52,181 nt of DNA from Campylobacterales bacterium (lineage in GTDB: Bacteria; Campylobacterota; Campylobacteria; Campylobacterales; QNZT01): assembly GCA_024278835.1 (NCBI GenBank), contig JAJRSK010000008.1, forward strand, positions 1 to 52,181, written 5' to 3'. A program made the position numbers and the translations under genes. Each line of letters begins with the position of its first letter. Positions within the stretch are counted from its first letter, which is position 1. Below the pieces are notes generated by a model. The model made no database searches. It saw nothing but the letters and a program-made list of their open reading frames with translations, and was not told the DNA's origin. This document shows positions 47,260 through 52,181 of the stretch, piece by piece.

Positions 47260-48246
47260 ATGATAGATATCCATGCCCACCTACTAAACGCAGATGTGCA
47301 ATTTGATAGGTTTTATGACAAGCTGGCGATACGATTTTTTGCATCCAAGCTTGGCATAGAGCCACAAGCACTCTTAGACAATCCCTACAAAGCGTACACA
47401 GATGGTTTGATGCAAAATATTAGAACATCCAAGCACCTCTCAAAAACCGTACTCTTTGGTGTCGATGCCCGTGTTGATGAGAGAGGAAAAACCCTGCACA
47501 AAGATATCACCGTCTGTGCAAATAATGAAGATATGCTTGCACTCTATCATGATAACCAAGATATCATCATCCCCTTTTTCTCTATCAATCCCCTGCGTCC
47601 CGATGCCTTGGATTTAATCGACAGATATACAGAGTTGGGATTTAAGGGGGCGAAATTTCTACAAAATTACTGGGGTGTGGATACAAGAGAAGAGAGGTTT
47701 ATCCCCTACTTTGAAAAACTCAAAGAGAAAAACTTACCCCTCATCGTGCATATAGGAAGTGAGAGTTCTGTGCACTCCTTTAAAGCCTGTGAAAGCATCG
47801 AGATGTTACATCAACCTCTAGAGATAGGTGTCAACACCATCTGTGCCCACATGGCGCTTAGTTACACTCCACTAGGCATCCTAAAAGCCCTCTCTCAAAA
47901 TCCAAAACATTTCAGCAAGGAGTATCATACGCTCTTAGAGATGTTGACCTATCATGATAACCTCTATGCCGACATCTCTGCAATCTTGACACCCGTAAGA
48001 GCCAAGGTACTCAGACACCTCTCAAAAGAAAAAAGCATCCACCACAAACTACTTTTTGGTACTGATTTTCCTGTACCCTTTACAACGATGTTTAACTCTT
48101 ATGATTTATCCTTTAAAGAGAGACGCGCACTAGGTCATATAGAAAACCCTCACGATAGATACGCAGAAGCAATCCTGCACTACTTCCCAAGAGAGAGTGC
48201 GATATATACGAATTATAAAAAGATTATAAAATCTCTACCAACTTGA
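47260..48246 (+). CDS. Amidohydrolase (metal-dependent hydrolase, ACMSD/amidohydro_2-like)
   Basis: 328 residues. MIDIHAHLL gives the H-x-H metal pair (His5, His7). LGFKGAKFLQNYWGVD, LPLIVHIGSESS, ICAHMAL and LLFGTDFPVP provide the remaining strand-end ligands of a TIM-barrel amidohydrolase, including the catalytic Asp. Substrate unknown. The start ATG lies in a palindrome (47256); two more give YHD (47545, 47950). The last eight codons, from about 48225, are inside a sequence that is repeated at 49307, where it forms the end of a convergent nuclease gene. The stop codon therefore lies in the island's left border. Confidence 0.82.
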   Translation: MIDIHAHLLNADVQFDRFYDKLAIRFFASKLGIEPQALLDNPYKAYTDGLMQNIRTSKHLSKTVLFGVDARVDERGKTLHKDITVCANNEDMLALYHDNQDIIIPFFSINPLRPDALDLIDRYTELGFKGAKFLQNYWGVDTREERFIPYFEKLKEKNLPLIVHIGSESSVHSFKACESIEMLHQPLEIGVNTICAHMALSYTPLGILKALSQNPKHFSKEYHTLLEMLTYHDNLYADISAILTPVRAKVLRHLSKEKSIHHKLLFGTDFPVPFTTMFNSYDLSFKERRALGHIENPHDRYAEAILHYFPRESAIYTNYKKIIKSLPT

Positions 48247-48444
48247 TATCCCCATTTTTTTCTGCGATAACCCAAAGTTTGATGTCATATTTTTTGGCAA
48301 CTTTTTTGGTGATGCCTATATATTTGTCATCTTTTCTCTTTTTTCGGATAAGAATAATGCCTGCTTGTTTTTTGTTTTAAGAGCATAATATTACTCCACC
48401 AACTAAATAGCCTCATACCCCTTATGCGAAAAATCAACTTCTAT
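48225..48444 (-). pseudogene. Decayed duplicate of the 3' end of the PD-(D/E)XK lipoprotein gene
   Basis: About 220 bp match 49307-49525 closely (TATAAAATCTCTACCAACTT, then ATATCCCCATTTTTTTCTGC and on). On the minus strand they encode the same C-terminal part, ending G-D-I-K-L-V-E-I-L and stop. The copy lacks a base in the T-run, has a scrambled stretch at about 48390-48412 and stops matching after CAACTTCTAT at 48444; it has no start. It forms a direct repeat with the functional gene on the far side of the MNT/HEPN pair, so the pair sits between a dead and a live copy of the same gene end. Confidence 0.8.
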
Positions 48445-48510: not shown

Positions 48511-48795
48511 ATGAGATTAAACTCTTTAGAGAGGGAAGTTTTAAAATCTAGTGTTAGATGTATAGATAAGGATTCTAAAGTTTATCTTTTTGGTTCAAGA
48601 GTTGATGATAGTAAAAAGGGTGGGGATATTGATATATTGATAGTCTCTGATAAGATTACAAGATTCGATAGAAGAAAAATAAAGTTAGATTTTTATGAAA
48701 AGTTTGGAGAACAGAAGCTTGATGTTATCGTTGATGATGGAACTTTTAGAGAACCTTTTTCAAAACTTGCATTTGAAAAAGCGGTAGAGTTATGA
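48511..48795 (+). CDS. MNT-type minimal nucleotidyltransferase (antitoxin)
   Basis: 94 residues. LFGSRVDDSKKGGDIDILIV carries the G-S-x10-D-x-D motif of minimal nucleotidyltransferases, with the two metal aspartates in GDIDIL. In MNT/HEPN systems this enzyme adds AMP to the HEPN toxin and so neutralises it. The stop overlaps the HEPN start by ATGA. The antitoxin-first order and the tight overlap are as expected. No palindrome copies, as elsewhere in this island. Confidence 0.85.
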   Translation: MRLNSLEREVLKSSVRCIDKDSKVYLFGSRVDDSKKGGDIDILIVSDKITRFDRRKIKLDFYEKFGEQKLDVIVDDGTFREPFSKLAFEKAVEL

Positions 48796-49226
48796 GTTTA
48801 GCAAATTTACAAAAAAATATAACTGCTTTAGAAAAACAGATATATTGGCTGGATATATCTATACAAGAGTGTCGATTGATAGGTATTAAAGAGAAATATA
48901 CAGTAGATGAATTTGGACGCTTTGAGACTCTTTGTGGTAGATTTGCTAGAAGTATAGATTTTGTAGTCAGGAAGGTATGGAGGAGTATTGATGATTTTGA
49001 GTTCGAAAATCAAGGTACTTTGATAGATGTTGTTAACAACGCACATAAAAGATCTTTGTTTGAAGATATCCAAGAGATACGGATGATAAAAGAGATTCGA
49101 AATGATATCGTACATGAGTATATTGAAGAGGGATTATTGGATGTGTTTGAAGATGTGTTGGCATTTAGTGAAAAATTGATAAATATTATGCTTGTCACTT
49201 TACATTATGCTAAAGATTTAAAATAA
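48792..49226 (+). CDS. HEPN-domain toxin (RNase), partner of the MNT protein
   Basis: 144 residues, all-helical. RNDIVHEYIEEG gives the R-x4-H catalytic motif of HEPN RNases (about residues 103-108); in the active neighbourhood the Y-x-E-E may be the AMPylation site region (the R-x4-x-Y pattern of HepT-type toxins). An N-terminal helical bundle (LQKNITALEKQIYWLDISIQ) fits the fold. Role would be translation arrest by RNA cleavage when MNT is absent. The unit 48511-49226 is enclosed between the two copies of the nuclease gene end. Confidence 0.85.
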   Translation: MSLANLQKNITALEKQIYWLDISIQECRLIGIKEKYTVDEFGRFETLCGRFARSIDFVVRKVWRSIDDFEFENQGTLIDVVNNAHKRSLFEDIQEIRMIKEIRNDIVHEYIEEGLLDVFEDVLAFSEKLINIMLVTLHYAKDLK

Positions 49227-49305: not shown

Positions 49306-49704
49306 CTATAAAATCTCTACCAACTTAATATCCCCATTTTTTTCTGCGATAACCCAAAGTTTGATGTCATATTTTTTGGCAACTTTTTTGGTGATGCCTA
49401 TATATTTGTCATCTTTTCTCTTTTTGCGGATAAGGATAATGCCTGCTTGTTTTTTTGTTTCAAGAGCATAGTATAGGGATTGACCTATCGCTTCATACCC
49501 CTTATGGGCAAAATCAACTTCTATGGCATACTCATCAGTCAGACAGTCAACTCTTGTTCTATTTTTAAGTGTATACTCTATCACACCATCTAGTTGATTG
49601 CAGGCTATCTTTTGGTAGTACTTTTCATGATGCTTGGTTGTTTTACTACAACCATGTGTGCATAAAATGAGTGAACAAAAGAGCGTTAGAGATATTGCTT
49701 TCAT
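49306..49704 (-). CDS. Secreted or lipid-anchored PD-(D/E)XK-like protein
   Basis: I chose ATG at 49704 (132 residues) because it starts a signal sequence, MKAISLTLFCSLILCTHG then CSKTT, giving a lipoprotein-like Cys; a longer frame upstream would overlap the previous gene. The mature part CNQLDGVIEYTLKNRTRVDC, DEYAIEVDFAHKGYEAIGQS and KQAGIILIRKKRKDD has the E ... D ... E-V-D/F ... Q order of PD-(D/E)XK nuclease folds. Secreted nuclease relatives of unknown role exist in proteobacteria. Start lies one base after the stop of the 88-residue gene, so the two are coupled. Its 3' end is duplicated at 48225-48444. Confidence 0.7.
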   Translation of the reverse strand: MKAISLTLFCSLILCTHGCSKTTKHHEKYYQKIACNQLDGVIEYTLKNRTRVDCLTDEYAIEVDFAHKGYEAIGQSLYYALETKKQAGIILIRKKRKDDKYIGITKKVAKKYDIKLWVIAEKNGDIKLVEIL

Positions 49705-49705
49705 G

Positions 49706-49972
49706 CTAAAATCCGATAAATGGCGAGATAAAAAAGGCGACAGCTCCACCAATAGCGTATTTTTTTAAATCTTTTTTCATCTCATTTACTCTTAGTGTGA
49801 TTAGTTTATCTATCTCATCATGATGGATAGTATCTATATCGATACCCTGCTCAAAAAGCTCTTGTTTTAGTGAATTATAAGCCTTTTCTCTTAATGTATC
49901 ATCAAGTGTTCGTTTGCCATTTTTATATATGCGTCTGCTTATTTTGTATGTTTTTGAGATTGTATCTATCAT
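49706..49972 (-). CDS. Small protein with C-terminal membrane segment, under the shared promoter element
   Basis: 88 residues: a mostly helical, charged cytoplasmic part (ISRRIYKNGKRTLDDTLREK, EIDKLITLRVNEMKKDLKKY) and a hydrophobic end AIGGAVAFFISPFIGF that is a single membrane helix. I recognise no family. AAAGGAGAGCAG precedes the ATG. It heads a two-gene minus-strand unit with the PD-(D/E)XK-like lipoprotein, driven by the 42-bp promoter element at 49995-50036. Confidence 0.65.
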   Translation of the reverse strand: MIDTISKTYKISRRIYKNGKRTLDDTLREKAYNSLKQELFEQGIDIDTIHHDEIDKLITLRVNEMKKDLKKYAIGGAVAFFISPFIGF

Positions 49973-49994: not shown

Positions 49995-50036
49995 TTGTTA
50001 GGGTTAGTATAGAAAATAAAGTAGTCAGATAGTGTC
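49995..50036 (-). promoter_or_regulatory. Promoter/operator element, left copy (minus-strand promoter)
   Basis: Read on the minus strand it starts GACACTATCTGACTACTTTA, continues through CTATACTA (-10 TATACT) and ends CCTAACAA, 22 bp before the 49972 start. The copy at 51013-51054 has the same 42 bp on the plus strand with 4 mismatches. Both copies drive genes that point away from the WYL gene between them. Likely binding site of the WYL regulator (inference). Confidence 0.7.
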
Positions 50037-50086
50037 CATCATGAAGAAAAGAGCAATATTGACGATATGGATAAAAAGGAAGATAC

Positions 50087-51013
50087 ATGGTTACATCAAA
50101 ACTTAGAAGAATTTTTATCATCTTAGAAGCACTTCATCACAGAGAAGTAGATTCTTATGATGAAGTGTTGCTTGAGAAATTTGGTATATCGCACAAACAG
50201 CTAGGAAGATTGCTTGAGGAGGTTGAGAGTGAGATAGAGCAAGTTGTAGAGATTAGAAAAGGTAGAAAAAAAGTATGGAGACTCATAAATCCTATCGATA
50301 TCATAAATGAGATAGCTACAAAGAGTGATGATCTTGGCTGGTTTTATCAGTTGGCAGTGGAGGGAGACCCTGAAGTTTTTGGAAAGTTAGCAGAATTTAC
50401 ACAAAAAGAGAGCCATATCTATCAATTTTTAACTACACCATTTGAAGATACCAAAGAGTTAGAAGCTCAACAAAAGTTTACAAAACTAAAAGAGGCTATC
50501 AAAGATAGAAGAAGAGTTGATATCACTTTTGTCGATAAAAAGATAGAAGAGGCAAAACCTATCAAGCTTATCATGATGAAAGGAAATTGGTATATCGCCT
50601 ATATCCATGATAAAAAAGTTCGTATAGGCAGGATCAGTTTTATAGAGAGTGTTACCTATGCATTTAATGATAGCCGTTTTAGAGAGAGTGAAATCCAAAA
50701 AGAGTTGGAATTTTTAAACACCATACAAAATCCATTTACCCTATATAATAAAGAGAGAAAAAGAGCAATCATCAAAGCTCAAAAAGAGAAAGCTCACTAT
50801 TTTAAAGCAGATATGAAGTCATTTTTCCCCTCTCAAAAGTTTATCAAAGAGTGTGAAGATGGCAGTGTGCATTTTAGCATCGACTATACCCAAGAGATGG
50901 AGATACTCCCTTTTATCCAAGAGTGGATACCAAGCCTAGAGATAGTAGAACCCCAAGAGTTGAAAGAGAGATTTATCAAAAAGCTACAAAAGATGATAAG
51001 TTGTTATAGCTAG
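50087..51013 (+). CDS. WYL-domain transcriptional regulator
   Basis: 308 residues. N-terminal winged helix-turn-helix (residues about 1-65, LRRIFIILEALHHREVDSYD, SHKQLGRLLEEVESEI). Then a WYL domain about residues 130-205 with RRRVDITFVDKK, KPIKLIMMKGNWYIAYI (the W-Y-L-like motif WYIAYI) and KVRIGRISFIESV, and a WCX-type C-terminal domain. WYL proteins sense nucleic acids or nucleotides and regulate phage defence, repair and CRISPR loci (BrxR, CapW families). The gene is bounded on both sides by copies of the same 42-bp promoter element, strong evidence for control of both flanks. AAGGAAG precedes ATG 50087. Confidence 0.9.
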   Translation: MVTSKLRRIFIILEALHHREVDSYDEVLLEKFGISHKQLGRLLEEVESEIEQVVEIRKGRKKVWRLINPIDIINEIATKSDDLGWFYQLAVEGDPEVFGKLAEFTQKESHIYQFLTTPFEDTKELEAQQKFTKLKEAIKDRRRVDITFVDKKIEEAKPIKLIMMKGNWYIAYIHDKKVRIGRISFIESVTYAFNDSRFRESEIQKELEFLNTIQNPFTLYNKERKRAIIKAQKEKAHYFKADMKSFFPSQKFIKECEDGSVHFSIDYTQEMEILPFIQEWIPSLEIVEPQELKERFIKKLQKMISCYS

Positions 51014-51054
51014 ACACTATCTGACTACTTTATCTCCTATACTACTCCTAACAA
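51013..51054 (+). promoter_or_regulatory. Promoter/operator element, right copy (plus-strand promoter)
   Basis: Begins in the last base of the WYL stop codon: GACACTATCTGACTACTTTA, then CTATACTA with -10 TATACT at 51038-51043, then CCTAACAA, 21 bp before the ATG at 51076. It differs from the left copy at 4 of 42 positions, all outside the first 21. The perfectly kept first 21 bp lies over the -35 region, where a regulator would block or recruit polymerase. Confidence 0.7.
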
Positions 51055-51075: not shown

Positions 51076-51270
51076 ATGGGATATTGGAATGGAAGTTACA
51101 GTAACAAATCAACTTGGAGAAAAACACCTACTAAGGTAGGTAAGAGTTGGCACACGCCATCTGGTGAAAGGGTGAAAAATCCTGATGCTTACTTTAAAAC
51201 GGTGGAAAAAAATGGCAGATATTGGAAAGGCAATACTGGCTGGAGTCCTAAAAATAGAAAGTATCATTAA
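51076..51270 (+). CDS. Small tryptophan/tyrosine-rich protein of unknown function
   Basis: 64 residues, basic, rich in W, Y, K, G, N and S (GYWNGSYSNKSTWRKTPTKV, SWHTPSGERVKNPDAYF, RYWKGNTGWSPKNRKYH). No signal or membrane segment. AAGGAG lies before ATG. It is the first gene behind the right promoter element. I do not recognise the family. Confidence 0.65.
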   Translation: MGYWNGSYSNKSTWRKTPTKVGKSWHTPSGERVKNPDAYFKTVEKNGRYWKGNTGWSPKNRKYH

Positions 51271-51433
51271 GGGTGCTTTCTATTTTCCAGAAGCAAGATT
51301 TAATGTGGAAAATGGATACCAGACTATAGCCGTGAGTGTTTTGGTTGCGGGCATTACTTTTGGTAGATATGAAGTTTTCTCTTTTGTAGTCGATATAGAT
51401 ATAACAAAATCTATATCGGAGCCACACCCATGA
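51212..51433 (+). CDS. Small hydrophobic-patch protein overlapping its neighbours
   Basis: 73 residues from ATG 51212, preferred to the ATG at 51185 because GGTGGA precedes it. It overlaps the previous gene by 59 bp in another frame and its stop overlaps the ankyrin start by ATGA, the coupling that argues it is real. Sequence MADIGKAILAGVLKIESIIK, then AVSVLVAGITFGRYEVFSFV suggests one membrane-active helix. Family not recognised; the overlap keeps confidence modest. Confidence 0.5.
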   Translation: MADIGKAILAGVLKIESIIKGAFYFPEARFNVENGYQTIAVSVLVAGITFGRYEVFSFVVDIDITKSISEPHP

Positions 51434-52181
51434 CAAAAGCTATGCAACAAACAAACATCGAAGAAGCCCTCAAAAGTCAAGATAAAAAAACAGTCCAAAA
51501 GTGGATAGATGAGGGAGGAAAACTCTCTGATTATAAATTGATGGACTATTATACTAAAGATAGTGACGAAGCATTTATTCTGTTTTTGATGGAAAATGGT
51601 GCTGATATTGATGCAAAAGCTGAAGATGGTACGACTGCTTTGATAAGGGCTTCATTTAATGGACATTTAGAAATAGCCAAAGAACTCATTAAATCAGGTG
51701 CTGCTATTGATGCAAAATATAAAGATGGTTGGACTGCTTTGATGTTCGCTTCATTCGCTGGACATTTAGAAGTAGTTAGAGAACTCATTAAATCAGGTGC
51801 TGATATTGATGCAAAATATAAAGATGGTTGGACTGCTTTGATGTACGCTTCATTGGATGGACATTTAGAAGTAGTTAGAGAACTCATTAAAGCAGGTGCT
51901 GATATTGATGCAAAATATAAAGATGATGTGACTGCTTTGATGTTCGCTTCATCCAATGGACATTTAGAAGTAGTTAAAGAACTCATTAAATCAGGTGCTG
52001 CTATTGATGCAAAAGATAAAAATGGTGCGACTGCTTTGATGTCCGCTTCATTGGATGGACATTTAGAAGTAGTTAAAGAACTCATTAAATCAGGTGCTGC
52101 TATTGATGCAAAAGATAAAAATGGTGCGACTGCTTTGATGTCCGCTTCATTGGATGGACATTTAGAAGTAGTTAGAGAACT
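51430..52181 (+). CDS. Ankyrin-repeat protein, runs off the window
   Basis: At least 250 residues, no stop before the window end. After about 55 residues (MTKAMQQTNIEEALKSQDKK) come ankyrin repeats of 33 residues with the usual D-G-x-TALM-ASxxGHLEVVxELIKxGA consensus; five full units and part of a sixth are visible. No signal peptide or enzymatic domain is seen in the visible part. It is coupled to the 73-residue gene by ATGA and is the third gene after the right promoter element. Ankyrin proteins bind other proteins; here the partner is unknown. The nearly identical codons in successive repeats point to recent expansion. Confidence 0.88.
   Translation, partial: MTKAMQQTNIEEALKSQDKKTVQKWIDEGGKLSDYKLMDYYTKDSDEAFILFLMENGADIDAKAEDGTTALIRASFNGHLEIAKELIKSGAAIDAKYKDGWTALMFASFAGHLEVVRELIKSGADIDAKYKDGWTALMYASLDGHLEVVRELIKAGADIDAKYKDDVTALMFASSNGHLEVVKELIKSGAAIDAKDKNGATALMSASLDGHLEVVKELIKSGAAIDAKDKNGATALMSASLDGHLEVVRE
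51598..52181 (+). repeat. Six tandem 99-bp units encoding the ankyrin repeats
   Basis: Units start at 51598, 51697, 51796, 51895, 51994 and 52093 (last cut by the window at 52181), each beginning GGTGCTGATATTGATGCAAA or close to it. The last two units are identical over the visible bases; the others differ at a few positions per unit, mostly at the D-G-W/T/A loop. Codon-level identity rather than only protein identity indicates duplication or gene conversion within the gene. Confidence 0.9.

Follow-up and report, generated by a model that had tools for sequence, protein, structure and literature searches.

Binding sites have been determined for only a small number of WYL regulators. The WYL activator DriD of Caulobacter governs a non-SOS DNA-damage response; its sites, with the consensus ATACGAC-N7-GTCGTAT, overlap the -35 element at one distance from the -10, and its DNA-binding domains sit astride sigma-4 at a poor -35 (PMC12340889). 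The actinobacterial regulators PafBC and SiwR, which employ sigma adaptation, act at the -26 region of promoters with a poor -35 (PMC11804915, PMC10693628), and activation by SiwR requires this region (PMC10693628). The defence-linked WYL regulators studied, CapW and BrxR, are repressors associated with BREX, CBASS and other islands. CapW sites overlap the -10 (PMC9122588), whereas the BrxR site lies downstream of it, and BrxR repeats have a 5-bp spacer and occur as two sites in one island (PMC9122601).

The window considered here, a 52,181-nucleotide stretch of a Campylobacterales genome, contains a WYL gene whose product has the same wHTH-WYL-WCX layout as DriD, its best structural match, and is associated with a palindrome that lies over a poor -35 at a constant distance from the -10, again as in DriD. 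The two proteins are about 17% identical, and their operators have a core in common (GAC-N7-GTC in DriD, GAC-N7-GWC in the window) but differ in the outer half-site bases, such that the full DriD consensus is not matched by the window operator. Since just the core is common, the regulator is described as DriD-like in its working and is not classed as a DriD orthologue. Moreover, DriD controls DNA-damage genes, whereas the predicted target here is a HisKin-conflict/iREC island. PafBC and SiwR resemble the window system in their action at the -26 region of promoters with a poor -35, but PafBC is a heterodimer with a non-palindromic site, SiwR uses a different 19-bp palindrome, and both have other targets. 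BrxR and CapW are similar in being encoded in defence islands and in having palindromic operators, and BrxR also in its 5-bp repeat spacer and two sites per island, but they are repressors, are weaker structural matches, and have operators that overlap or follow the -10, a placement not seen for the window sites. Among CRISPR-associated WYL proteins, in one from a type III locus (L041) the same operator follows the stop codon, whereas the window gene has no adjoining cas genes.

The element, its three copies, their fixed spacing and the linkage to WYL genes can be read from the DNA itself. The favoured interpretation is that a DriD-like WYL activator probably controls the HisKin-conflict/iREC island from three promoters through a TAGACA-N5-TGWCTA operator.

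Operator copies and the extent of the island

Two 42-bp elements, at 49995-50036 (minus strand) and 51013-51054 (plus strand), agree at 38 of 42 positions and are identical over their first 21 bp; about 1.6e-8 pairs of this quality would be expected by chance in a 52-kb random window of the same composition. Both carry TATACT and lie 21-22 bp upstream of an ATG, at 49972 (minus) and 51076 (plus). Apart from the chance estimate, these features had been reported in the first-pass annotation and were confirmed, as was the position of the WYL gene between the two elements (50087-51013, plus; 308 aa), whose product matches Pfam WYL (2.5e-5) and WCX (2.7e-9) over both cut-offs. The operator itself had been assigned to the first 21 bp of the element, which proved slightly misplaced: the conserved core is a 17-bp palindrome, TAGACA-N5-TGWCTA, that starts 2 bp before the right element, inside the WYL stop codon.

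Copy 1 of the operator (51011-51027, plus) reads TAGACA-CTATC-TGACTA, an imperfect palindrome whose TAG is the WYL stop codon, and the -10 hexamer TATACT of the right-wing promoter follows 10 bp later (51038-51043, plus). Copy 2 (50022-50038, minus), read on its own strand, is TGGACA-CTATC-TGACTA and is also followed after 10 bp by TATACT, the -10 of the left-wing promoter (50006-50011, minus); on its WYL-facing side, a -10 at the 10-bp distance was not found. Numbered from the -10, the operator spans -39 to -23, ending exactly 10 bp upstream of the hexamer, and comparison of the window sites with TTGACA at -35 spacing gives at most one matching position of six. Inspection of the operator by eye for an 11-bp extended repeat of the BrxR type showed that the symmetry goes no further than TAGACA/TGACTA.

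When the 2.5-Mb genome was searched with up to 3 mismatches, the sole further copy beyond the window pair was found at G000:C5:2406-2390 (minus), before a PIF1-like helicase gene; its 17-mer is identical, and it agrees with the right copy at 35 of 42 positions. The element is therefore not scattered among unrelated promoters of this genome. Contig C20, which the window represents, breaks off within an ankyrin gene, and the 6.7-kb contig C5, when reversed, begins in the same ankyrin repeat. The two ends have a 28-bp exact overlap, and a comparison of contig ends located this repeat at these two only. The probable join of C20 and C5 through the ankyrin gene is well supported, and the right wing would consequently run through p64, possibly p82, a fused Ank and HisKin-conflict gene, p217 and an iREC protein gene. 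All three copies can be assigned on this basis to promoters of one island, serving p88-p148, p64-Ank-HisKin-conflict-p217-iREC, and the PIF1-like helicase. The first-pass annotation had described a regulon of two wings, which was incomplete, because the operator before the helicase adds a third.

The first gene of the left wing is the open reading frame p88 (49706-49972, minus), encoding a small protein with a hydrophobic Gly-rich C-terminus. The second, p148 (49306-49752, minus), is an open reading frame for a probable lipoprotein with a conserved DCLTDEYAIEVDFA, and its true start is likely an ATG within the frame. Earlier interpretation of p148 as a PD-(D/E)XK protein is unsupported by Pfam or NCBIfam, neither of which gave a match. 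A second partial copy of the p148 3' end is present at 48227-48376 (98% over 50 aa), about 1.1 kb from p148, and a nucleotidyltransferase/HEPN-like pair (48511-49226) occupies the space between them, as though its insertion had brought a duplication.

Two orphan small proteins and an ankyrin protein had been proposed for the right wing. The first, p64 (51076-51270, plus), stands as an orphan, having no convincing homologue among the retrieved loci, whereas the p82 frame (51185-51433, plus) overlaps p64 as well as the ankyrin gene and is possibly not a gene. The ankyrin repeats (51430-52181, plus; Pfam Ank) are indeed present, but they form only the N-terminal part of an Ank-HisKin-conflict protein, the remainder of which is encoded on C5 at 6666-4642 (minus; locus L036). 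Next on C5 are p217, a 526-aa iREC-REC-(HEPN-like) protein with iREC and a response-regulator domain, operator copy 3, and the PIF1-like helicase gene (L036 1071-2343, minus), which is split by a frameshift that may reflect either genuine decay or an error of assembly. Pfam matches on C5 are HisKin-conflict PF22561 (1.8e-49), iREC PF22563 (1.1e-16) and PIF1 (2.7e-25), with the PF22561 and PF22563 proteins encoded in one operon and both over cut-off. The island begins directly after an amidohydrolase gene. This gene closes a block (polA, a regulator, a 1149-aa membrane protein and the amidohydrolase) that is conserved in other genera of the family, where the downstream genes differ. An anti-phage role for the island is suggested by the names of its protein families and by its neighbours.

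The promoter element in other genomes

Protein-family searches, made independently of the motif, supplied HisKin-conflict/iREC islands from relatives. A repeat scan of these islands returned TAGACA-TATTT-TGTCTA and similar sequences, whose half-sites and spacer length equal those of the window. When exact half-sites were counted at spacers of 0-15 bp in loci that were not motif-chosen, 15 pairs had a spacer of 5 and 0-1 occurred at each other length. Among 67 gene-facing sites, a set that includes regions found through the palindrome but none found through the -10, a -10 matching at least 5 of 6 positions lies at exactly 10 bp in 43, compared with 10 of 67 at the next best offset. The composite of palindrome, N10 and TATAAT occurs 23 times in 118 kb of HisKin islands and 0 times in 381 kb of control regions. 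The consensus of 52 composite sites is TAGACA-AAATA-TGWCTA-N10-TATAAT, followed by an A near +1. A constant distance to the -10 is kept across families, which may reflect common descent of the promoters, but the flanks and the N10 sequence differ freely between sites. Some E-values reported here come from single-genome searches, the metagenome-assembled genomes (MAGs) are fragmented, and some regions were motif-led.

Within Campylobacterota, the composite is found again in HisKin-conflict/iREC and CRISPR type III islands and in others. In one genome (G371), all six exact genomic sites fall within a single 11.7-kb island, before a WYL operon, a HisKin gene, a PIF1-like helicase and other genes. 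Two islands with HisKin/iREC genes (L079 and L068) have no site within the 14-17 kb examined, and the genome of the latter has one composite site elsewhere. A search of GTDB representatives for TAGACA-N5-TGWCTA-N10-TATAAT returned 60 stretches, 24 of them from Campylobacterota, and the promoter code may reach far beyond this phylum. A composite search of viral contigs returned no site. Composite promoters before or near WYL genes were also noted in Clostridia and a Gracilibacteria MAG (L193, L203, L212, L214, L182).

A counterpart of the window island is found in one genome of another family (L103/L102), where an operon with homologues of p88 (30% over 77 aa, E 3e-9) and p148 (50% over 117 aa, 3e-35) stands behind an operator and extends as far as the WYL orthologue, and a further operator precedes a PIF1-like helicase 23 kb away. 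This genome keeps two of the three wings, and conservation of the neighbours with the WYL gene is partial. Beside the p148 homologue in this operator-driven operon is a 117-aa truncated FtsZ-like N-terminus (L103 11317-11670; assigned by eye). Another recurrent component of WYL-operator islands is a PcfJ-like protein of about 480-508 aa, often encoded behind an operator (L077 15008-16534, L080 1-803, L089 979-2406, L108 3328-4800), whose gene in some islands adjoins one for a ClpA/Cdc48-like AAA protein.

The gene order HisKin, p217, iREC is present in seven other genomes, and the N-termini of the HisKin-conflict proteins are interchangeable. Ankyrin repeats are found in the window, L077, L078 and L080, whereas in three relatives (L069, L076, L079) the protein is fused to a retron-type reverse transcriptase (NAxxH and VTG motifs; PADLOC 1e-105 or better), a domain that was not found in the window system, which has ankyrin repeats in its place. 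These reverse transcriptase fusions (L069 3437-5941, L076 2681-4786, L079 9539-11530) are followed by p217 and iREC genes, and their closest PADLOC models are RT-Protease_XI and RT-TIR_XII; together, the three components possibly constitute an undescribed retron type. The iREC protein of the island (L036 2419-3999, minus) and its seven relatives have an invariant R494-N495-x3-H499 (8 of 8) in a mostly helical C-terminus, which, compared with the Rx4-6H motif of HEPN ribonucleases, is suggestive of a putative HEPN ribonuclease, although this C-terminus has no Pfam HEPN match and Foldseek returned receiver proteins only. PADLOC gave no named system for the iREC protein, and among the papers searched there was none dedicated to iREC/HisKin systems. 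Beside one HisKin gene (L080 5150-7588) is a gene for an 812-aa fusion of a NERD nuclease-like domain, a UvrD-like helicase and WYL-WCX.

The WYL protein and its proposed role

The AlphaFold model of the window WYL protein has a pLDDT of 84. A winged helix-turn-helix is predicted at its N-terminus from the H-H-H-E-E arrangement at residues 5-66 of the model and from full-length alignments to DriD and PafBC; this region has no Pfam HTH match. In a structure search, the best PDB match was DriD (E 9e-14), with PafBC at 3e-10 and CapW/BrxR at about 1e-5. The PADLOC model 'WYL, CAS associated_signaling' also matches (E 2.4e-21). A protein search of the genome-contig collection with the window sequence gave no match; relatives came from a genome search, the closest being that of L041 (44%). 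The putative ligand strand contains R179-x-x-R182, which corresponds to the arginine pair R204/R207 in the ligand strand of SiwR. This match makes single-stranded DNA a plausible ligand, to which about even weight can be given.

In the proposed mechanism, the WYL protein would serve as the dedicated regulator of one defence/conflict island. Its dimer would bind TAGACA-N5-TGWCTA at -39 to -23 of each island promoter and, by analogy with DriD, hold RNA polymerase at promoters with a -10 and lacking a -35. Binding of a nucleic-acid ligand by the WYL domain, such as single-stranded DNA from infection or DNA damage, would activate the promoters of p88-p148, of p64-Ank/HisKin-conflict-p217-iREC and of the PIF1-like helicase, and a single switch probably serves the entire island.

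Activation is the preferred mode of action, and a reasonably likely one, because the position of the site and its constant spacing are as in DriD and the fold match is best to DriD. Campylobacterota promoters often lack a -35, so its absence here is only weak evidence for activation. The same regulon and operator might instead serve a repressor of the BrxR/CapW type, blocking polymerase at the -35 region until released by a ligand. The first-pass annotation had leaned toward such repression, and there are several grounds for it: CapW and BrxR both repress and bind promoter palindromes (PMC9122588; PMC9122601), the operator covers the -35 region, a potentially cell-killing island requires tight silence, and sites before WYL genes themselves would suit an autorepressor. 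However, every site here ends 10 bp before the -10 at constant spacing, rather than overlapping or following it as in CapW and BrxR, and the match to the DriD/PafBC fold is far better. Repression is thus the less likely mode, although it deserves serious consideration.

Whichever way it acts, the WYL protein of the window is very likely the binder of the palindrome. Among regions chosen by the palindrome alone, a WYL gene was found in 9 of 13 with a -10 at +10, in 1 of 27 without one, and in 1 of 20 chosen with a reversed control pattern (Fisher 2e-5); a WYL match was known beforehand in 2 of the 40 site-chosen regions, and the split by -10 was made afterwards. Lone palindromes without a -10 were set aside as background, a second set of such regions having a WYL gene in 0 of 19. 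At least 16 of the 60 composite stretches have a WYL gene in the same 3-8 kb, and in 5 of 7 other islands the HisKin-conflict/iREC genes have a WYL gene as neighbour or only a few genes away. These data uphold the earlier suggestion that the repeated element is linked to the WYL gene and marks the promoters of a regulon. Neither of the two outcomes named there as refuting it, a spread of the element over many unrelated promoters or a lack of conserved neighbours, was observed.

A tree of 33 WYL proteins places those of the window, L041, L091 and L103 in one clade (98/95), and this clade is nested in a larger set of mostly CRISPR-like WYL proteins without the site. Ten of the other site-positive proteins form a second clade that is not sister to the first, so the specificity for the site is either old or convergent. 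In L041, a RAMP (type III CRISPR) locus, the operator follows the WYL stop codon by 183 bp and precedes a small gene by 45 bp. For most of the WYL relatives from CRISPR-like loci (L042-L052), the DNA examined contains no site, which indicates that the operator is a property of sub-clades rather than of all CRISPR-linked WYL proteins.

It is improbable that a different regulator binds the palindrome and that the WYL gene simply tends to accompany defence islands. Such islands commonly contain WYL genes, certain regions have a site but no WYL gene in the stretch examined (L107, L115), and some islands encode another HTH protein (p190, in L077 and L069). Nevertheless, the site is 23-38 bp upstream of the WYL start codon in 8 of the 60 composite stretches, including examples from Clostridia and a Gracilibacteria MAG, and in the window, L104 and L098 it either overlaps the WYL stop codon or lies directly against it. 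Furthermore, the clade of the window protein is wholly site-positive (4 of 4), and beside the window sites no HTH gene other than the WYL gene was seen. Least probable by far is that the copies, inverted and flanking one gene, are the nonregulatory ends of a mobile or invertible cassette, an idea rejected because no recombinase or transposase gene lies between or beside them and the third copy is solitary before another gene, while elsewhere the spacing to the -10 is retained between differing flanks.

Implications for the regulation of defence islands

By comparative sequence analysis alone, a site, a spacing rule and a target list have been obtained for a WYL family across Campylobacterota and seemingly beyond. 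Several questions are thereby made testable, including how defence islands are switched on, which ligand is involved, and whether WYL proteins act as activators in immunity. The motif can also be used to find uncharacterised defence genes, among them p88, p148, PIF1-like helicases, PcfJ-like and LRR proteins, and HisKin-conflict/iREC systems.

A broader proposal, with about an even chance of being correct, is that a widespread class of defence-island WYL proteins are activators that supply the missing -35 contact at every promoter of their island through the code TAGACA-N5-TGWCTA-N10-TATAAT. If true, one ligand-sensing WYL protein would turn on many separate defence operons sharing a single promoter code, and the system would parallel, in defence, the damage response governed by DriD/PafBC.
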